Shown in pieces: positions 21,605 through 30,397 of a stretch of 64,000 bases of DNA. The notes under the pieces were generated by a model. It ran no database searches. It was not told where the DNA came from and saw only the letters and a program-made list of their open reading frames with translations. Source of the DNA: Halobacillus kuroshimensis DSM 18393 (GTDB lineage: Bacteria; Bacillota; Bacilli; Bacillales; Halobacillaceae); NCBI RefSeq assembly GCF_000425705.1, contig NZ_AUDY01000016.1:1-64000 (forward strand), read 5' to 3'. The stretch's first letter is position 1; the number at the start of each line of letters is the position of its first letter. Both the position numbers and the translations under genes were made by a program.

Positions 21605-22870
21605 ATGATGAAAGGCTCATTAATAAAGCAACATCGGAAATTTAAAAATATGACCTTGGAAGAACTTGCATCAGGAATCTGCTCAGTCTCTTATTTGAGT
21701 AAGATTGAGCACGATACAATCAATGCCAGCGAAGAAATTTACCGCCTCCTCGGTGAGCGCTTAAAAATTAAACTGATTGATATTAACGAAGAGTTCGACG
21801 AGGCAATATACAACAACCTGCACGCCTGGCACGAGGCTTCCCAGATGAGGGATTTCACCCTTATGGACGAACTCCATGAAGAGTGTACTAACCAATTGAA
21901 CGATAACCAGAATATTGAGTTGACCAACTTATATAAAATTGTTCACACCCGTCATCAAATGACTAAAATCGGAAAAACCCTGTCGGATGACGTCATGAAG
22001 GAACTTTCGAATATTTATGATGGTGCAAATCCAGAATATCGATTTTTCTTCCATAAAACCATTGGCGTTCATTATCTGTTATCAGCGGAATTGAAGAAAT
22101 CCCTGAAGCATTTTATGGAAGCCGAACAACTCATGAATAAACTTCCCATCCACGAGGGGGAGGTTTATTTCCATTTAGCTTTAGCTTATTCAAAGATCCG
22201 ATCGTTTGTTGAATCCACCTACTATGCCTACCAGGCTTTAGAGATTTATGAGGATCACCTTTATTATCAACGCATGGTTGACAACTATATTATTATTGCG
22301 ATTAATTACAACTCCCTCGGCGTGCACCAAATTGCTGAAAGGTTCCTCTTAAAAGTTCTGAAGGTTGCTAAGTATCAGCTGCCTGTTACAGAAAAAAGAA
22401 GGATCTATCACAACCTCGGGATCAACTATATTAATCAGGAGAGATACTCAGATGCCTATCACTACCTTCAACAAGCCTACGAAATCGATACGAAGGAAAC
22501 TATGTTCAGATCCAGCACCATATACCTGCTCGCTTTAACCAGTTACTATAGTGATGATTTATCCCAATGCTGGAAGTATATTGCGGATGGAGAGGCTGAG
22601 TCGGAAAAAGAAAATCTCCTGAAATACAAACACAAGTTTTACATCTTAAGGAATATGGTGAGTGAAACAACACTCGAAGATTCCTTCATGGAGAAGCTCG
22701 AGAATACAATTATTCCTGACTTCCGACGGTTGAATGAATACAAAGACTATAAAGAATTTGTAGAAATGCTCGGAAACCTCTATTACGAAAAACGCATGTA
22801 CAAAAAAGCAGCGATGTACTACAAAGAAGCCAACCATTACAGAGAAACCCAAAAAAAAGATTTACTATAA
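21605..22870 (+). CDS. RRNPP-family regulator without an adjacent peptide gene
   Basis: A 421-residue paralogue of the protein at 6308. Residues about 4-55 are a helix-turn-helix (MTLEELASGICSVSYLSKIEH). The rest is tetratricopeptide-like, for example STYYAYQALEIYEDHLYYQ, VHQIAERFLLKVLKVAK and AYHYLQQAYEIDTKE. It should be a peptide-responsive DNA-binding regulator. Unlike the first copy, no small secreted peptide follows: the stop is five bases before the terminator palindrome duplicated around repeat copy 2. The cognate signal is therefore either encoded elsewhere or shared with the first system. An ATG at 21608 is an equally good start. Confidence 0.88.
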   Translation: MMKGSLIKQHRKFKNMTLEELASGICSVSYLSKIEHDTINASEEIYRLLGERLKIKLIDINEEFDEAIYNNLHAWHEASQMRDFTLMDELHEECTNQLNDNQNIELTNLYKIVHTRHQMTKIGKTLSDDVMKELSNIYDGANPEYRFFFHKTIGVHYLLSAELKKSLKHFMEAEQLMNKLPIHEGEVYFHLALAYSKIRSFVESTYYAYQALEIYEDHLYYQRMVDNYIIIAINYNSLGVHQIAERFLLKVLKVAKYQLPVTEKRRIYHNLGINYINQERYSDAYHYLQQAYEIDTKETMFRSSTIYLLALTSYYSDDLSQCWKYIADGEAESEKENLLKYKHKFYILRNMVSETTLEDSFMEKLENTIIPDFRRLNEYKDYKEFVEMLGNLYYEKRMYKKAAMYYKEANHYRETQKKDLL

Positions 22871-22874
22871 AAAA

Positions 22875-22898
22875 AGGAGAAAGCATCCGCTTCCTCCT
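22875..22898. repeat. Left 24-bp direct repeat (terminator palindrome) flanking copy 2
   Basis: A hairpin with 10-bp arms and loop ATCC: AGGAGAAAGC/GCTTCCTCCT, one mismatch. It lies five bases after the RRNPP gene stop. It is identical over 24 bp to 23477-23500 on the other side of the repeat element. It acts as terminator sequence and reads as a target-site duplication. Confidence 0.9.
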
Positions 22899-23476
22899 CA
22901 GCTTGTAGAGAAACCCCTGTTTCTTTACAAGCTTTTTTTGTTTCTTACCGCCAGGAGCGAAAGCCCCTTCCCTTTCCGCGGACGAGCGCCCGAGCTTCCT
23001 CGCAAAACCCACGCTCGGTGATCTCGGCCCACTCGTTCTTCCGCAGGAGTGGAAGGGGCACCGATCCTTGGGTGTTCTATAAAATTGAAAAAGACTCTCC
23101 TTCACTTAGCTCAACCTTGCTGGCTGGAGGACAATCTTTTTCATATTCCGGCAGGCAGCCGTCATCAACGCCTGTTCTTTCCCTTACTCTTTTCCACGCA
23201 AGAGGCCATAGCGCAGCCCATGCCGTTCTTTTAAATCTGCGAATCTGCATAGGGCACAATCTCTCTCCTCTATATTCTAACGTCGCCACGAGGAGCGTTC
23301 GGTGGTGACGCCTGCGGGAACAGCGCGAGCCGAAGATCCACTTGGTCAAATGGGTTTCTTGACCAAGTTAGCTGAGGCCGTGCCCGCGGCAAGCATCCAC
23401 CGATAAGCGGAACGCTTCCCCTCAACACGACATGCGGAGAACTCGGACTGGATAACAAGGATTTTTCTAGAGCCTG
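22899..23476. mobile_element. Composite repeat element, copy 2 (complete, about 578 bp)
   Basis: A non-coding element bounded by a perfect 24-bp direct repeat. Its ends are imperfect inverted repeats: CAGCTTGTAGAGAAA on the left, and on the right the complement reads CAGGCTCTAGAAAAA. From left to right it holds a terminator-like hairpin with T-tract (22899-22939), a GCCCCTTCC...GGAAGGGGC hairpin (about 22963-23058), an AAAAAGACTCTCC hairpin (about 23088-23142), and a large hairpin (about 23301-23401) with apical arms at 23341-23349 and 23359-23367. No transposase is encoded, so any movement would need one in trans. It separates two convergent genes. Confidence 0.85.
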
Positions 23477-23505
23477 AGGAGAAAGCATCCGCTTCCTCCT
23501 TTTCC
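23477..23505 (-). terminator. Right direct repeat and terminator beside copy 2
   Basis: Second copy (23477-23500) of the 24-bp terminator palindrome, here followed by TTTTCC. It begins three bases after the stop of the leftward exonuclease gene. Before insertion, a single copy probably served both convergent genes. Confidence 0.85.
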
Positions 23506-23507
23506 TT

Positions 23508-24380
23508 TTACATCCCGGTAATGTTTTTCTTCCAGTTCTTAAATTCCAGCTCATCGAATTTGGCACCCATTTTCTCCTCATCGATATAAAACAGCGCATC
23601 ATCAAGAGAACAGTCGACAGCTGCTTCACAATGAATCGCAGCAAGCTTCCGTGATAAATGAAGCATATCCAGGTTCTCTTCTATTTTGGAGCGCTGCCCT
23701 TTCGTCAATTCCTCGATATTTTCAAGGATGCCTTCAATAGTTCCATACTTCAGGAGAAGTTTCAGGGCTGTTTTTTCGCCAATCCCTTTCACCCCTGGAT
23801 AGTTATCACTTGTATCCCCCATCAAAGCCTTTAAATCAATCATCTGGGATGGTGTAATGCCTTTTTCCTCATAAAAGCTGTCTTCATGATACTCAGCATA
23901 GTTTCCATATCCCTTTTTCAATAGGACGACATTCACATTCGGTTTCAATAGCTGGAGGAGGTCCTGATCTCCTGTCAGCAGGAAAACCTGGGAATCTTCA
24001 CTATACACGCGGCTGAGCGTCCCCATACAGTCATCTGCTTCATACCCGACCTGCCCAACATTCGGTATATCCAAGGCGGCCACGGTTTCTTTAGCCAGTT
24101 CAAACTGGGGAATCAGCTCAACAGGCGGCTCCCCACGGTTTGCTTTATAATCCGGATATAAATCGTTACGGAAGGTTTTACTCCCCATATCCCAGCAGCA
24201 GATGACGTGCGTCGGCTGATATGTGTCCAACGCGGTGAATAAATGCTTCATCATCCCATAGACAGCATTCGTCGGCGTCCCTTTGCTGTTGATCATATAA
24301 TAATTACTCATAGCCGTGGCGTAAAAAGCGCGGAATAATAGCGCCATGCCATCGACAAGAAGTACACGGTTGGTTGTCAT
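23508..24380 (-). CDS. ypcP: 5'-3' exonuclease (YpcP/polymerase I N-terminal domain family)
   Basis: A 290-residue protein homologous to the 5' nuclease domain of DNA polymerase I. Acidic metal ligands are visible in LLVDGMALLFRAF (Asp near residue 9), GYEADDCMGTL (near 118) and LLTGDQDLLQLL (near 138). The helix-three-turn-helix DNA-binding motif NYPGVKGIGEKTALKLL lies near 193. It likely removes RNA primers or flaps and overlaps in function with PolA and RnhC. Single gene, with its terminator now bordering the composite repeat. Confidence 0.92.
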   Translation of the reverse strand: MTTNRVLLVDGMALLFRAFYATAMSNYYMINSKGTPTNAVYGMMKHLFTALDTYQPTHVICCWDMGSKTFRNDLYPDYKANRGEPPVELIPQFELAKETVAALDIPNVGQVGYEADDCMGTLSRVYSEDSQVFLLTGDQDLLQLLKPNVNVVLLKKGYGNYAEYHEDSFYEEKGITPSQMIDLKALMGDTSDNYPGVKGIGEKTALKLLLKYGTIEGILENIEELTKGQRSKIEENLDMLHLSRKLAAIHCEAAVDCSLDDALFYIDEEKMGAKFDELEFKNWKKNITGM

Positions 24381-29393: not shown

Positions 29394-29555
29394 ATGAATA
29401 AAGCGACTTTGATTGTTTTTCTTGTACTCTGTCTTCTCTTCCTGACCAGGGGGATCTACATTGGTGTTTCCCACGGGGAATGGACCTCTCTGTTCATTGC
29501 CCTGCTGATCATTGCATTTGGATCCTACCGCCTTTATAAGAAAAACCAAAAATAA
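29394..29555 (+). CDS. Small two-helix membrane protein
   Basis: A 53-residue protein. It has an N-terminal hydrophobic segment (TLIVFLVLCLLFLTRGIYIGV), a short polar loop (SHGEWTS) and a second hydrophobic segment (LFIALLIIAFGSY), ending in a basic tail (RLYKKNQK). Strong site TTGGAGGATC. No family recognised. Its terminator is the 24-bp palindrome that repeat copy 3 abuts. Confidence 0.72.
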   Translation: MNKATLIVFLVLCLLFLTRGIYIGVSHGEWTSLFIALLIIAFGSYRLYKKNQK

Positions 29556-29577
29556 AGCCTTCTGTAAAGAAGGCTTT
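29554..29577 (+). terminator. 24-bp terminator palindrome abutting repeat copy 3
   Basis: Perfect 9-bp arms AAAGCCTTC/GAAGGCTTT around TGTAAA. It overlaps the stop codon of the small membrane protein and runs directly into the left end of the repeat, so its own T-tract is only TTT. Confidence 0.8.
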
Positions 29578-30028
29578 CAGCTTGTAGAGGAACCTCTGTT
29601 TCTTTATAAGCTTTTTTCTTTCTTGCCGCCAGGAGCGAAAGCCCCTTCCCTTTCCGCGGACGAGCGCCCGAGCTTCCTCGCAAAACCCAGGCTCGGCGAT
29701 CTCGGGGCCACTCGTTCTTCCGCAGGAGTGGAAGGGGCACCGCTCCTTGGGCATTCTTTAACATCGAAAAAGACTCTCCTTCACTTAGCTCACCCTTGCT
29801 GGATGGAGGAGAGTCTTTTTCATATTCCGGCAGGCAGCTGTCATCAGTGCCTGTTCTTTCCCTTTTTCTTTTCCACGCAAGCGGGAACAGCACGGGCCGA
29901 AGATCCACTTGGGCAGGCGACCTTCCTGACCAAGTCAGCTGAGGGCGTGCCCGCGGTATTCATCCACCAACAAGCGGTGTGACTCTTTACACGACAAATG
30001 GACAACTCTAACTGGTTAACACAGGCTT
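29578..30028. mobile_element. Composite repeat element, copy 3 (internally deleted)
   Basis: It starts at the same base as copy 2 (CAGCTTGTAGAGG) and keeps the terminator-like hairpin, the GCCCCTTCC hairpin and a perfect AAAAAGACTCTCC/GGAGAGTCTTTTT hairpin (about 29767-29820). About 100 bp present in copies 1 and 2 are missing after 29881; the join falls on a GCGG shared by both edges. That removes the outer left arm of the large hairpin, while the apical arms at 29908-29916 and 29926-29934 remain. The right end stops at ACACAGGCTTTT inside the stop codon of the next gene, without the right terminal repeat or a second terminator. Confidence 0.85.
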
Positions 30029-30397
30029 TTATGCATATCTGGGAAGATCGTATCTCCCGAACCACTGGTGCCTGTGGGCGGAAAACCAACGGTATAATGG
30101 TGACCCGATCCGGGAGGCGCCAGGGAGGGATAAGAGGACGCCCAGGGCTGCAAAAAAAGGCAGGGCAAGCATCAGCCGCCGAATCGTCTCAAATCCCTGA
30201 GTGATTTCTCCCTGCTTTGTCAGCATATGAATCTCGTCGAGGACATTTCGATCCTCTAAGTAAGGGTAGTTCCCATTTTTCTCTGTTTCCTGTACAGCTA
30301 CCCATTTAATCTGCCCCATCCAGTCAAACTTTCTCAATACTTTTTTTACATAGAAGCAGAAAGGACACTGCGCATCGTAAAACACGATATGCTTCAC
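30029..30397 (-). CDS. DCC-family thiol-disulfide oxidoreductase (DUF393)
   Basis: A 122-residue protein with the family signature FYDAQCPFCFYVKK: the DxxCPxC motif gives Cys11 and Cys14. A central hydrophobic stretch (ALPFFAALGVLLSLPG) may contact the membrane. DUF393 proteins are predicted thioredoxin-like oxidoreductases. It lies 12 bases after the PabB-PabC gene and is probably co-transcribed. Its stop codon coincides with the right border of repeat copy 3, so the native downstream sequence, including any terminator, has been replaced. Confidence 0.88.
   Translation of the reverse strand: MKHIVFYDAQCPFCFYVKKVLRKFDWMGQIKWVAVQETEKNGNYPYLEDRNVLDEIHMLTKQGEITQGFETIRRLMLALPFFAALGVLLSLPGASRIGSPLYRWFSAHRHQWFGRYDLPRYA

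Follow-up and report, generated by a model that had tools for sequence, protein, structure and literature searches.

In the 64,000-nt stretch of the Halobacillus kuroshimensis DSM 18393 genome analysed here (hereafter the window), a short element without an intact gene separates two convergent genes and is bordered on both sides by the same terminator hairpin. How a whole hairpin came to stand on either side of an insertion, and which enzyme placed it there, are the questions raised by this locus. The element spans 578 bp (22899-23476, + strand). As stated in the preliminary description, it lies between perfect 24-bp direct repeats, AGGAGAAAGCATCCGCTTCCTCCT, at 22875-22898 and 23477-23500 (24/24 identical letters). 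Each repeat represents a whole terminator hairpin; the left copy folds with -11.2 kcal/mol (z -3.2, 0 of 200 shuffles as good) and the right copy with -12.3 kcal/mol (z -2.1, 9 of 200 shuffles as good). The upstream gene (21605-22870, + strand) codes for an HTH/TPR regulator (Pfam HTH_3 and TPR_12) and the downstream gene (23508-24380, - strand) for a 5'-3' exonuclease (Pfam 5_3_exonuc_N and 5_3_exonuc), which bears out the claim that the repeat is located between convergent genes.

The ends of the element are imperfect inverted repeats as initially described, CAGCTTGTAGAGAAA on the left and CAGGCTCTAGAAAAA on the right (23462-23476, - strand). The left end (22899-22939, + strand) harbours an inward-reading, terminator-like hairpin with a 15-bp stem followed by a T-run, which folds with -19.8 kcal/mol (z -7.3). 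On the - strand, positions 23115-23243 carry a remnant of the C-terminal part of a transposase gene, with 43 aligned residues and one stop (tblastn, 70% identity, E 4e-16). The element is short, has no intact gene, possesses terminal inverted repeats and is present in many copies, as is the case for MITEs. Prokaryotic MITEs, which share these features and are likewise moved in trans, usually generate short duplications of fixed length, in contrast with the hairpin-length duplication found here.

Two other copies are present in the window, each with only one border left. Copy 1 (1-475, + strand) is cut by the contig start and adjoins a terminator hairpin at 476-496 on its right; the palindrome previously placed at 474-498 includes two extra outer A:T pairs per side. 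Copy 3 (29578-30030, + strand) is internally deleted and devoid of a right terminus and of a second hairpin. It directly follows a terminator hairpin at 29554-29577, in agreement with the earlier reading of this border. A 124-bp structured repeat module (23286-23409, MFE -54.9 kcal/mol) is nested in the complete element. This module is also found free-standing, at 94-96% identity, in the relatives G015, G010 and G024, with inverted ends GTTGCTTCCACGA / TCGTGAGAAGCAAC or close variants in most copies read. Rfam searches of the whole window returned no family at gathering score, group II introns included, and a group II intron or another known RNA was discarded on these grounds. Group IIC introns also insert at terminator hairpins, but they are RNA-based and do not duplicate their target. 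Five sub-gathering matches were obtained, all weak, the best one being that of positions 23298-23405 to the Staphylococcus aureus sRNA family tsr24 (28 bits, with 50 needed).

We then looked for the origin of the element. Its positions 1-348 align in one stretch, at 88.5% identity, with an IS of Halobacillus hunanensis (L125, L159), and its right end matches the IS right end over a shorter, imperfect stretch. The terminal inverted repeats of the autonomous ISs are CAGGCTGTCGAGAAA / CAGCTTGTAGAGAAA or close variants, and some borders placed with this motif look misplaced. The transposase family profile was scored on a relative of the parent IS, from genome G032, whose product gave 351 bits with NF033551 (cut-off 270), the window element itself having only the 43-residue remnant. 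The G032 transposase harbours PF05598 and, in its C-terminal piece, PF13751. Thus, the link to IS1182, which the preliminary description had marked as unverified, is supported by the remnant, by the match of positions 1-348 to an IS of the clade and by the family score of the related copy. The window element appears to be a MITE derived by internal deletion from an IS1182-family IS.

Three residues, D151, D281 and E408, do not vary among the 14 transposases aligned and are candidates for the D-D-E catalytic triad. The structure model of the transposase is weak (mean pLDDT of 68), and a fold search with this model identified no solved structure at an E value of 0.001 or better. When solved structures were searched by sequence, nothing matched at E values up to 0.1.

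In the genome of H. kuroshimensis, we found no match to the 400-residue reading frame of the G032 transposase, and a search with PF05598 gave nothing. Matches to that frame were detected in 15 of 41 genomes searched, some of which are congeners with broken copies. As no transposase match was found in their own genome, the MITEs look orphaned. The window element is thus probably an orphan, probably moved in trans by a transposase found in related bacteria. A full-length partner may have been missed through an assembly gap, which is conceivable because some contigs end inside MITE copies. The contig of the window starts inside one (1-475), and the end of contig C2 and the start of contig C12 of this genome also break in copies.

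Next, we analysed the insertion site in congeners. The exonuclease gene is present in all 21 congeners searched, and in 20 of them the site was found, by eye, to have no element and one hairpin. The regulator gene is also part of the locus in 19 of these 20 genomes. The single hairpin of the element-free congeners indicates that the hairpin was duplicated on insertion. In the sister genome G014, a copy of the element (L216, near 1250-1515) is present at the same terminator. It is inverted relative to the window copy, has an internal deletion and is accompanied by a single host hairpin, and it represents either a second insertion at this terminator or a rearrangement.

Eight further insertion sites of the H. 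kuroshimensis genome were searched in six congeners. Four of them (L005, L007, L009 and L010) are empty in G014, each with one contiguous match across the join. Three others (L016, L019 and L042) yielded split matches in that genome, as expected if they are occupied, and L002 gave a match to one half only. Among the other congeners, G007 has an empty L016 site, and an empty L042 site is present in G002, G007 and G009. A single hairpin is present in all the empty-site alignments that were read, namely those of L005 and L009 in G014, L016 in G007 and L042 in G002. A direct repeat in the absence of the element, which the preliminary description had put forward as contrary evidence, was not seen at the empty sites examined. 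For an insertion of the G032 IS, comparison with the one congener showed, by eye, a lone hairpin downstream of the same gene, different from that in G032.

We determined how general the duplication is among the MITE copies of the same genome. A search with the element, in which 40 of 139 first-look candidates were scored, yielded 60 matching pieces. These were joined manually into 41 places, of which at least three consist of the inner module only. Both borders could be scored in 22 places, the other 19 being located at contig ends, truncated, reduced to the inner module, or with a missing or rearranged border. A border-anchored repeat (score of at least 10) was found in 18 of the 22 copies and in none of 462 mismatched flank pairs. 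Below that score, L006 and L041 have the same terminator on both sides by eye, with an indel, and the flanks of L003 and L045 differ, with different hairpins on the two sides of L003. Different hairpins were also seen by eye on the two sides of L040, one of the 19 unscored places. The hairpins vary from copy to copy. The genome also contains a second MITE subfamily of approximately 370 bp, with similar ends and a different middle.

From the sister genome G014 we took 14 copies. Both borders are present in 10 of them, and a score of at least 10 was reached by 5 of the 10. Among the others, L255 scores 8.5, and L248, L253, L254 and L259 have no convincing repeat. The copies without a repeat could be explained by recombination between copies or by later loss. 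L253 is bordered by two different terminator hairpins, one of which resembles the hairpin of L034 in the H. kuroshimensis genome, and recombination between copies is possible in this case. Duplication is thus common in old MITE copies and not universal. Full-length copies without duplications, which the preliminary description would have counted against its reading, do occur as a minority (L003 and L045 in this genome and the five sub-threshold copies in G014).

We extended the analyses to the autonomous ISs. A scan of named genomes gave 138 relatives, of which 80 were kept and 71 analysed, nine having been dropped because their gene is cut by a contig end. Both ends were identified for 54 of these ISs, one end for 16 and neither for one. 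Border-anchored repeats flank 45 of the 54 copies, compared with 2 of 2862 mismatched pairs. For 41 of the 54, the repeat itself served to place the border, which favours this result. In some of the nine copies without a repeat, the failure is due to runs of N, to a nested copy or to a border placed wrongly. L135 and L153 have different hairpins on their two sides.

A second set, free of this bias, was collected by searching 398 genomes of the class with the right-end motif alone, which identified 38 places in 13 genomes. Twenty places were taken, of which five are cut by contig ends and 15 are usable. Repeats were found at 13 of the 15 (all nine in G360, one in G335 and three in G110), and at neither of the two sites of G201. 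All 13 repeats match without mismatch over 16 bases; the best match among 210 mismatched pairs has three mismatches, a control that covers the scan for long elements and not the rescan that yielded the three G110 copies. The latter (L322, L324 and L325) are 168- or 169-bp MITEs of the clade, and the hairpin is duplicated in all three testable copies. In G034, whose transposase is 42% identical to that of G032, repeats flank nine of the ten copies taken from 13 matches, and the tenth copy has a broken left end. In G032 they flank four of the five copies taken, the fifth being cut by the limits of the stretch. Eleven loci of other IS1182 relatives (L300-L308, L213 and L214) are mostly cut by contig ends or without a clear border. 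L300 and L302 belong to another IS1182 branch, with ends GAGGCCACTGAAAAA, and are found inside GC-rich repeats that may fold. Read inwards, the ends of the autonomous ISs consist of a hairpin followed by a T-run in 41 of 41 right ends and 37 of 41 left ends, as counted without a shuffle control.

DNA transposons normally duplicate a constant number of target bases, which is determined by the distance between the two active sites. To define the geometry of the repeats, we pooled 89 copies (54 ISs, 22 MITEs of the H. kuroshimensis genome, 4 copies of G032 and 9 of G034), with those of G014, G360, G110 and G335 kept outside the pool. Repeats flank 76 of the 89 copies. When the empty sites are rebuilt, the midpoint of the repeat coincides to within 1.5 bp with that of the best hairpin in 70 of these 76. 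An earlier way of scoring hairpins gave agreement to within 1 bp for 41 of 42 repeats, compared with 2% of 396 random places. The lengths of the repeats at the 70 centred sites range from 18 to 33 bp and are correlated with those of the G:C stems (Spearman 0.72, n=70). The correlation is 0.75 (n=66) when a subclade with long repeats is left out, and none of 10000 shuffles of the 66 lengths fits as well as the real ones. The repeat end is most often located 1 bp outside the outermost G:C pair. In a five-copy subclade, all repeats are 31-33 bp long, and those of four copies extend 4-7 bp beyond this pair. The nine copies of the 1558-bp IS of G360 differ from one another at two positions at most, and their duplications, each of which is a hairpin, are 19, 20, 20, 23, 23, 23, 26, 28 and 29 bp long. 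The length of the copied target thus seems to be set by the shape of that target rather than by a fixed number of bases. Judging from these alignments, duplication length varies with the hairpin, which refines the earlier notion of a terminator duplication.

We consider it very likely that the window element is a MITE of an IS1182 clade found in Bacillaceae and Paenibacillaceae, and that the transposase of this clade targets hairpins, mainly those of intrinsic terminators, leaving the entire hairpin on either side of the insertion. The picture first drawn of a non-autonomous element that aims at terminators, duplicates them and is served by an enzyme in trans is supported as far as sequence can show. 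The transposase would attack both feet of the extruded hairpin and so copy the structure exactly, and the duplication likely arises in this manner. The terminators at the IS ends would replace the T-tract cut off from the host hairpin and would restore termination for the genes on both sides. Insertion between genes would be nearly harmless, and the transposase gene would be shielded from read-through. As to what is measured, we lean with some reserve towards a DDE transposase that reads the duplication length from its target, at the feet of the extruded hairpin, so that within one transposase family joining at the 5' feet would give duplication and joining at the 3' feet the replacement that has been proposed for IS1272. 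Recognition of the IS ends, which are hairpins too, may follow the same principle as that of the target.

Among other readings, a transposase dimer might recognise, on double-stranded DNA and without extrusion, two opposite boundaries between an A/T-tract and a G:C stem at varying distance. An A- or T-tract indeed lies beside the hairpin on at least one side at 65 of the 70 sites, and 53 of the 70 repeats begin with A and end with T. Nevertheless, the tract is present on one side only at 27 of the 70 sites and on neither side at five, and three G360 repeats (L311, L313 and L317) end at the foot of the hairpin although one side has no tract. In addition, the stagger between the cuts made by DDE enzymes is generally constant. 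This makes recognition of such boundaries unlikely. Because five sites have no tract, the hairpin, and not termination as such, seems to be the target, terminators being the usual one. This refines the proposal that the element targets terminators.

Somewhat less probable again is that the transposase acts on a hairpin of single-stranded DNA, in the lagging-strand template or a transcription bubble, rather than on a duplex cruciform. Hairpins form easily on single strands, and both the targets and the IS ends are hairpins. However, a full repeat on both sides requires that both strands be joined at a stagger, which would be reached more directly from the two arms of a cruciform. An ordinary fixed-length duplication combined with a preference for palindromic targets would fit the uniform five-copy subclade, but it is very improbable, as it is contradicted by the 19-29-bp range of the near-identical G360 copies and by the dependence of length on the stem. 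Least credible is the absence of any duplication: convergent genes could each own a terminator and some copies do have different hairpins per side, but pre-existing double terminators are ruled out by the single hairpins of congeners (20 at the window site, and the four G014 sites contiguous across the join, two of which were read), and hairpins carried along as part of the element are ruled out by their differences between copies.

Hairpins are known as targets in the same family. IS1272 is reported to target hairpins, which it deletes or replaces without any duplication (Furi 2016, PMC4923244; Wan 2017, PMC5678879). Like the present clade, IS1272 and TnSha1 of staphylococci belong to the IS1182 family, and these papers describe hairpin targets, often terminators, with little or no sequence consensus (PMC4923244, PMC5678879). 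In contrast with IS1272 as depicted there, our clade keeps the hairpin and duplicates it, with repeats on both sides of 76 of the 89 pooled copies and 5 of 10 in G014. In the model proposed by Wan 2017, joining at the 5' feet duplicates the whole stem-loop, a hypothetical 'pathway b' (PMC5678879). The Bacillaceae clade behaves as its 5'-feet branch predicts and provides natural evidence for a branch previously drawn only as a model.

According to another report, IS1182-related elements of Thermoanaerobacter kivui act with or without target duplication or deletion (PMC12056078). IS1182 is one of the families that a survey found to be over-represented between convergent genes (PMC9208149). Both IS1272 studies cite a review according to which palindromes are targeted by some IS1182 members (PMC4923244, PMC5678879). 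In the literature searched, no IS was described as duplicating a whole hairpin, and that review may already cover part of the matter. Thus, the IS1182 family is known, and duplication of hairpin length is apparently undescribed in the literature searched.

A distant relative in G036, an IS1182-family IS whose transposase is 21-22% identical to that of G032, differs from this clade. Of its 16 listed copies, eight were read, and none of these eight has a direct repeat at its borders. An A-rich and a T-rich stretch flank six of the eight by eye, as though a terminator hairpin had once stood between them, and this IS looks as though it uses the replacing mode.

By its anatomy, the window element is an ordinary MITE, which comes from an IS clade with an unusual choice of target and an unusual way of copying it. 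As G360 provides duplications of 19-29 bp that match each hairpin, structure-guided transposition is directly testable. Since the elements aim at terminators and the IS ends look like terminators, they also suggest a way to insert DNA beside genes with little harm. Lastly, in Siminovitchia fordii, contigs are broken inside ISs, and the hairpins next to these breaks can be matched in pairs (L117 with L119 and L118 with L120). Hairpin duplications could thus serve to join draft contigs.
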